From the NCBI RefSeq assembly GCF_002007215.1, contig NZ_MUHX01000006.1:1-64000 (forward strand): a DNA stretch of 64,000 nucleotides. Direction: 5' to 3'. Of this stretch, positions 3,199 to 22,607 are shown piece after piece. The notes below the pieces were generated by a model. The model was not told the DNA's origin. It did not search any database and saw only the letters and a list, made by a program, of their open reading frames with translations. Each line of letters opens with the position of its first letter. Position 1 is the stretch's first letter. Source of the stretch: Pyramidobacter sp. C12-8. Lineage in GTDB: Bacteria; Synergistota; Synergistia; Synergistales; Dethiosulfovibrionaceae. The translations under genes were made by a program, and so were the position numbers.

Positions 3199-3638
3199 CT
3201 AGAAAGCAAGGAACGTACGGAAGCGGATCTGGTTGTCGTCGTACTTGAAACCCCACCCGGCATCGTCGCTCACATCGATGTCGTTATAGGCAAGTTCGAA
3301 GCGAAGGTTGGGGCTGTACTGGTAGCCGACGCCCACCGTCCACTCCTTAGCATCGCCAACTTTATCCATGTCGTACTTGGCGTAACGCTCAAAGGTATGC
3401 CACTTGTCGTTCCACTTCTGCTTAGCGCCGACAAAGATAACGTTCATATCCTGAAGGACAGGATTGGCTTCCAGCATATCCTTTACCCCGGGCGCGACAA
3501 ACACTTCGTCATTGAAAGCATAAGGCGTATTCTGAAGGACAAAGCCTTCGTCGAACTTGGCGTATTCAACCCACAGAGAGGTGAACTTGAGCGCGTCCTG
3601 GCTGACGTCGAGGGCAACCTTCCACGCCTTGGGATCAT
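3199..3638 (-). pseudogene. Truncated SLH-porin, C-terminal barrel fragment only
   Basis: The minus strand encodes about 146 residues matching the end of the neighbouring SLH porins: DDPKAWKVALDVSQ, FTSLWVEYAKFD, KQKWNDKWHTFERYAKYDMD, and a C-terminal IRFRTFLAF strand. Signal peptide, SLH domain, coiled coil and the first half of the barrel are absent. At 3638/3639 the porin sequence stops abruptly and is joined to the duplicated murJ-upstream segment. This is a recombination remnant and probably not expressed as a porin. Confidence 0.85.
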
Positions 3639-6360: not shown

Positions 6361-6649
6361 CCCCTCGCCCAACGCCGAAGATTTTAGATTTCGATCGTTG
6401 ATTTTAATGGTCTCTTATTACGTTCACCGTAGAGCGTCCATATTTACAACGTAAACAATACAAAAAACTTCGACAATGTTCTATTTTTTATATCCAATCA
6501 AGTGATTACAATGGATTTTATCTCTATGACCTGAACAAAAAAATCCCTTTCGCAAAATTTCTTCACCAAAAATTTTCAGCGACTGGTCCGTATTTTTTCA
6601 GCGTTTTGTCCATGGACTGCGGAGAGCTCGTCTCCCGTAATTCCGCTTC
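6361..6649. other. AT-rich intergenic region upstream of porin 1
   Basis: This is markedly more AT-rich than the surrounding genes. I see no open frame with a recognisable product and no RNA gene. It may contain upstream elements for the porin 1 promoter. Confidence 0.4.
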
Positions 6650-6798
6650 TTGATAAAAAGCGTTAACATAGTTTGCAGGGCGCTGCGGGGAGTTCGCCCG
6701 CTCAGGACTGCCTCGACCGCTGCGCGGCCCGCGCAGCCCGCTTTGCGAATCGCCCTCGCAGCGCCCTTGCGTTCACCCTTTTAATTGAGAAACAGTAT
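6650..6798 (+). repeat. Structured repeat element, copy A (possible small RNA)
   Basis: About 145 bp are homologous to 22425-22565. An outer stem GGGCGCTGCG (6678-6687) pairs with CGCAGCGCCC (6757-6766). An inner TTCGC/GCGAA stem and an apical hairpin (GCTGCGC/GCGCAGC) lie within. The ends share AACATAG and TTTTAATTGAGAAA with the other copy. The orientation given is arbitrary. It could be a non-coding RNA, or a small non-autonomous mobile element. Confidence 0.7.
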
Positions 6799-6842
6799 AA
6801 AAAAGCCGCCGTCGCGCTCCTCAGCGCGGCGGCGGCTTTTTC
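6799..6842 (-). terminator. Bidirectional terminator after SLH-porin 2
   Basis: The GC-rich stem GCCGCCG...CGGCGGC is flanked by A6 and T5, 28 bp beyond the porin 2 stop. Confidence 0.8.
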
Positions 6843-10026: not shown

Positions 10027-10146
10027 GTTGTCGTCGCGTCTCCGCCCAGCGCAGATCTTCAATGAAACACCTTACACTATTTCTCAATTAAAATGCCGAA
10101 CTATACTCATTCTCGATATAAAGCGCGCCGTTCCTCCGAGAACGCG

Positions 10147-22377: not shown

Positions 22378-22424
22378 GAAAAGACACCTCCGGCATGACG
22401 GAGTTCCGCCATGTCATACTATTC

Positions 22425-22565
22425 TTGATAGAAAGTATAAACATAGTTTTCTGGGCGCTGCGAGGGAGTTCAGTCACTCAGAACTACCTCGACTGCTGCG
22501 CAGCTCGCTTTGTGAATTTTCCCCGCAGCACCCTTATGTTCGGCTTTTTAATTGAGAAAATAATA
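22425..22565 (+). repeat. Structured repeat element, copy B
   Basis: Homologous to 6650-6798. The stem GGGCGCTGCG (22453-22462) pairs with CGCAGCACCC (22524-22533, one mismatch). Outer AACATA (22440-22445) pairs with TATGTT (22535-22540), and inner TTCA pairs with TGAA. The apical hairpin is shorter (GCTG/CAGC) than in copy A. It lies between convergent transcription units. Confidence 0.7.
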
Positions 22566-22607
22566 TCATTCGGAAGGCATAACGCCTCCCCATATTCGCG
22601 GCCTTGC

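Follow-up and report, generated by a model that had tools for sequence, protein, structure and literature searches.

The 64,000-nucleotide stretch of Pyramidobacter sp. C12-8 DNA analysed here (the window) contains two look-alike non-coding sequences, and the question raised by this locus is whether these are members of a structured RNA family, conserved for their fold, or copies of a mobile element. The results of the current study indicate, with a probability of about 0.93, that the repeat is a family of MITEs whose IS630-type partner has been identified. The arguments for this reading, and the alternatives to it, are set out below.

The two copies in the window

A first-pass annotation of the window, made from the letters of the sequence, had described two non-coding sequences with common ends and a nested stem, and both are present and alignable with one another. 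The copies lie where they had been placed (6650-6798 and 22425-22565), with their true ends slightly outside these positions (Table 1), and the inspection of their flanks for target-site duplications, which that annotation had proposed, placed each copy inside a 3-bp direct repeat, TAA for copy A and TCA for copy B. The neighbours of copy A are two tandem SLH-domain genes, with a terminator-like hairpin adjoining, and those of copy B are a 6-O-methylguanine-DNA methyltransferase gene and one unnamed gene convergent with it, with a terminator-like hairpin on the left. The short apical hairpin of copy B identifies it as a member of a common 148-150-bp length class. Compared with 200 dinucleotide shuffles, the folds of the two copies have z-scores of -4.11 and -3.89, and none of the 200 shuffles folded as well.

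Table 1 Coordinates of the MITE copies, target-site duplications and truncated end in the window.
Feature	Position	Strand	Remarks
MITE copy A, 157 bp	6641..6797	+	terminal repeat decayed on the left (TTCCGCTTCTTGATAAAAA) and reading TTTTAATTGAGAAACAGTA on the right
Target-site duplication TAA, left of copy A	6638..6640	.	
Target-site duplication TAA, right of copy A	6798..6800	.	abuts the inverted repeat of the terminator-like hairpin at 6800-6841
MITE copy B, 149 bp, short-apex length class	22417..22565	+	between convergent genes
Target-site duplication TCA, left of copy B	22414..22416	.	
Target-site duplication TCA, right of copy B	22566..22568	.	
Truncated MITE end (CACTATTTCTCAATTAAAATGCCGAAC)	10075..10102	+	TTA directly before

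A dispersed family with a 3-bp target duplication

The genome of the window (G000) is a draft assembly of 2.67 Mb in 182 contigs, and was compared with another genome of this species (G140), which contains a 2.78-Mb contig, with two sister-species genomes (G001 and G003) and with the genome of a related species of the same genus (G004). The further copies in the genome and in related species that the first-pass annotation had suggested looking for were readily found, as a search with either window copy detected more than 40 full or partial dispersed copies in G000, and the copies number dozens in two sister species. The terminal pattern TACTATTTCTYRATTAAAA, with up to three mismatches allowed, occurs at 118 sites in G000 compared to one for a reversed control pattern, and the repeat is therefore a family rather than a pair. 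The element is a near-complete palindrome whose ends, written in the inward direction, are TACTATTTCTYAATTAAAA and TACTAWTTCTTGATARAAA; both have the form TACTA..., and a TNA flanks both sides. Full-length copies measure 144-163 bp, mostly 156-159 bp or 148-150 bp, and are accompanied by deletion derivatives of 69-119 bp, several of which are still palindromic. Tandem truncated ends (TACTATTTCTCAATTAATACTATTTCTTAATT) are present at L068:4978-5013 (G000:C166:76977-77012) and L077:2634-2669, each being an element inserted in the terminal repeat of another with TTA or TAA as target.

The target-site duplication was assessed in 72 intact copies from three genomes. An exact 3-bp flanking duplication is present in 40 of these, against a shuffle mean of 14.9 and with none of 2000 shuffles reaching 40, and duplication lengths of 1, 2 and 4-7 bp show no excess over shuffles in the same copies. 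The flanking bases are T at -3 in 67, A at -1 in 68 and T at +1 in 71 of the 72 copies, and the preference of the target and its neighbours is YTNAR. The exact duplication is missing from the other 32 copies, which we read as decay or recombination.

Comparison between species provides precise empty sites. Neither G003 (CCCGC-AATGTCATTCGG) nor G001 has an insertion at the copy B site, where TCA occurs once. About 50 bp from this site G001 carries a separate insertion of the family with a TGA duplication, for which G000 and G003 have the empty site. Copy A is missing from G001 and G003; its flank there is diverged, and the alignment picks up again at the same TAA, ahead of the terminator-like hairpin. 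The repeat thus combines the properties by which MITEs are recognised: it is short (within the 50-500 bp of MITEs, and too small for a transposase gene), dispersed and multi-copy, has terminal inverted repeats (TIRs) and a target-site duplication, shows insertion polymorphism with empty sites, and has an autonomous element with the same ends.

The family was detected in three of 61 genomes by DNA search, and the end pattern, with at most one mismatch, is present in six of 188 genomes of the phylum, namely G000, G140, G001, G003, G004 (with a variant end) and one genome of another family, whose single hit has no MITE in the surrounding sequence. On the 61-genome search and the 188-genome pattern scan, the MITE family is confined to the genus. 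A scan of public genome contigs for the exact TIR pattern, which may omit records near the genome of the window, gave 36 scattered matches in unrelated taxa, and these were taken as chance. The sister MITE family found in G004 is about 160 bp long, has the end TACTATTTCGCGATTAAAA and TGA flanks, and occupies five sites (loci L253, L259 and L264 near 1501).

The IS630-family partner

Every paired TIR found in G000 lies 69-175 bp from its counterpart, none of the pairs being IS-sized or leaving room for a transposase, and the 182-contig draft assembly has no detectable match to the partner IS; mobilisation in the strain of the window therefore needs a lost or unassembled IS copy. In G140, the variant end TACTATTTCTCATTTAAAG, present at six sites, is one end of an IS of 1,114-1,116 bp, of which this genome has nine near-identical copies. 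Relatives of the IS are present in G001 and G003, the G001 copy being degenerate. The G140 end TACTATTTCTCATTTAAAG agrees with the MITE end TACTATTTCTCAATTAAAA at 17 of 19 bases, and the end of the G001 copy is exactly TACTATTTCTTAATTAAAA, matching the MITE end at 19 of 19 bases. At one end of the IS, the match to the MITE extends over only about 19 bp, and at the opposite end about 9 bp are shared.

The eight G140 copies of the IS that were examined all have an identical TNA duplication (TTA, TCA, TAA, TCA, TAA, TAA, TAA and TCA), and two G140 insertions are precisely absent in G000, with a single target copy each (TACTAACACAG and GTGTCAAGAGG). These empty sites rule out that the TA at the ends of the IS is the actual duplication, because an empty site has one TNA and that reading needs TNA-TA-TNA. 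The comparison of the two genomes shows that the partner IS moved recently within the species. G140 also contains the arrangement gtttTCA[IS]TCA[MITE]TCAgc, in which the MITE is identical at 149 of 149 positions to the MITE at another locus; this points to recent movement of both the IS and the MITE at the same kind of target.

The partner IS (L274:1345-2459 and the other G140 copies) has two overlapping frames of 169 and 259 amino acids with an A7 run at the overlap, replaced by A6 in one copy (L272). The first frame matches HTH_33 (47.1 bits), and the second matches NCBIfam NF033545 (140.9 bits, cut-off 100) and Pfam DDE_3 (75.7 bits, cut-off 28.6). The A7 run at the frame overlap suggests that the transposase may be made by programmed frameshifting. 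The IS thus has a DDE transposase of the IS630 type and lacks the 2-bp TA duplication of that family; it is an IS630 member by its transposase, with a target rule that differs.

Other transposases were considered as the driver of the MITE. Some IS5-family groups, such as IS1031, make 3-bp TNA target duplications, IS5-family (DUF4096) copies are present in G001 and G003, and one DUF4096 relic in G000 adjoins a weakly TIR-like sequence, but a MITE driven by such an element is very unlikely, as the IS5-type ends (GAGCGTGTTCAC) are unrelated to the MITE, the flanks are CTAG-like, the IS5-type element has itself inserted into MITE copies, and the IS630 element fits the MITE in both end sequence and duplication. 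The DUF4096 elements of G001 and G003 were accordingly rejected as partners, the terminal repeat not being shared. The same fate befell a DDE_Tnp_1 match at C155:79969, as the stretch examined around it has no MITE-type TIR. The IS5-family element is about 820 bp long and is located at L186 and L188-L192 (G001, G003), lying inside MITE copies in L186 and L192. The relic is at L187:1416-1690 (G000:C100), with TACTAGATCTTATTAAAATGCTG just before it, the weak likeness of which to the MITE end may be chance.

The palindromic structure, intergenic location and many copies of the MITE would also suit REP/REPIN-like palindromes moved by a RAYT (tyrosine transposase), but the MITE carries TIRs, is flanked by 3-bp duplications and has precise empty sites, and the probability of this alternative is negligible. 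REPs are not known to have any of these three features. Outside the window, two identical GCGATGTTCCACGTGGAACATCGC sites lie 2 kb apart at L090:1549-1572 and 3599-3622 (G000:C155), with a similar sequence beside the MITE copy L030; these resemble parS centromere sites.

RNA structure or DNA palindrome

The first-pass annotation had drawn attention to a compensating change between the window copies (TTCGC/GCGAA versus TTCA/TGAA), and offered two explanations, a small RNA family and a structured non-autonomous mobile element. Covariation was examined in 90 copies, using Fitch reconstruction on a FastTree tree. Same-branch double changes from one Watson-Crick pair to another on paired columns number 22; re-pairing of the arms leads to an expectation of 2.9, with a maximum of 9, and slid controls never exceed 6. 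The compensating change is therefore genuine, and the arms of the MITE stay complementary above chance level. This excess of compensating changes and the stable fold of both window copies favour a small-RNA or structured-RNA family that is selected for its fold and has spread as a repeat, but several observations make that explanation highly improbable. In RNA, G.U is better tolerated than A.C, and a DNA palindrome is indifferent to the strand that is read. The one-sided changes from a Watson-Crick pair are strand-symmetric, with 177 to G.U and 172 to A.C, which does not suggest RNA selection, with the caveat that these counts would also come out equal if the core had been inverted or if both transcripts were under selection. 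The R-scape analysis that had been proposed, run in a home-made version with a tree-based null that preserves the substitutions on every branch, found none of 56 pairs significant, and the strongest covariation is between unpaired columns that are diagnostic of subfamilies. The annotation had not recognised the repeat as a known RNA, and the whole window indeed has no Rfam match at gathering score. Furthermore, the insertions are polymorphic between species, both window copies being absent from the sister species, and copy B is flanked by convergent genes and has a terminator-like hairpin on its left.

The mobile element offered by the first-pass annotation is thus upheld by the TIRs, the 3-bp duplications, the empty sites and the autonomous partner, and the small RNA, or selection on RNA structure, finds no support in the Rfam, G.U/A.C, covariation and sister-species results given above. 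What appeared to be an RNA family is explained as a mobile element. The case warns against taking compensating changes in a palindromic repeat as proof of selection on RNA, and the symmetry between G.U and A.C is a simple way to tell a DNA palindrome from RNA selection.

Proposed model and gene neighbourhood

We propose that the repeat is a type II MITE of about 157-158 bp, of which a class of 148-150 bp and shorter deletion derivatives also exist, and which is most likely moved in trans by the transposase of the 1,114-1,116-bp IS630-family IS with the same ends. The transposase would cut a TNA target, with the preference YTNAR, leaving a 3-nt stagger that results in a 3-bp duplication, and the MITE would move by a cut-and-paste route. 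The compensating changes would arise from DNA-level correction between the arms of the palindrome, possibly through a hairpin or template switching.

The neighbourhood of 68 MITE copies was surveyed with gene calls from a rough home-made predictor. None of the 68 copies lies inside a gene, and their neighbours are convergent in 32 cases, tandem in 26 and divergent in 3, with 7 unresolved; in the window, convergent gaps make up about a fifth of intergenic bases. Twelve of the 68 copies abut a predicted stop codon at their start, and in these cases the TNA target was the TAA or TGA stop codon. This location between genes and mostly at their 3' side probably reflects the survival of harmless insertions. 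A doubtful alternative is that copies were co-opted to act at 3' ends in both directions (as mRNA stabiliser, terminator or RNase III site), as for some Correia or ERIC copies. It draws on the distribution among the 61 classified copies, on the twelve that begin right after a stop and on the precedent of RNase processing of MITE transcripts (review PMC10969869), and the strand symmetry would be expected if the hairpin served both of the convergent transcripts. The same distribution, however, follows if insertions in genes and promoters are selected against, and the window copies are polymorphic between species.

We lean towards a wider interpretation, in which a lineage of IS630/Tc1-mariner-type transposases switched from the usual 2-bp TA to a 3-bp TNA target, with the TA now fixed within the ends of the element itself. 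This lineage would drive a large family of palindromic MITEs, the survivors of which sit chiefly at the 3' ends of genes and in some cases took the stop codon as their target. The changed stagger is directly testable, as this is a natural IS/MITE pair that was apparently recently active in this species.

Comparison with known systems

A TA target and a 2-bp duplication are regarded as characteristic of the IS630/Tc1-mariner family. For instance, ISY100, of the IS630 family, inserts almost only at TA and duplicates it (PMC2170065). The Pyramidobacter pair resembles IS630/Tc1-mariner elements (ISY100, IS630) and their MITEs in its IS630-scoring transposase, in the overlap of two frames at an A7 run and in the small non-autonomous relatives with shared ends, but differs from IS630 and ISY100 in having a 3-bp TNA duplication in eight of eight IS copies and an exact 3-bp repeat at 40 of 72 MITEs. 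A search limited to published papers found none that combines IS630, TNA and target site duplication. The IS5-family TNA groups have the same 3-bp TNA duplication, and differ from the Pyramidobacter partner in transposase family and ends.

MITEs are well documented in bacteria, and those such as Correia, RUP and Chunjie are 50-500 bp long, with TIRs, mostly intergenic locations, tens to more than 100 copies and size variants (PMC10969869). The Pyramidobacter MITE is similar to these in size, TIRs, intergenic placement, copy number and size variants, and is unrelated to them in sequence and host. Correia elements are located mainly upstream of genes (PMC10969869), whereas the Pyramidobacter MITE is mainly found 3' of genes. 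REP and ERIC sequences are likewise palindromic, intergenic and often 3' of genes, but the Pyramidobacter MITE is set apart by its TIRs, its clear TNA duplication and its empty sites. It is an ordinary kind of element, except for a 3-bp TNA duplication in a family known for a 2-bp TA.
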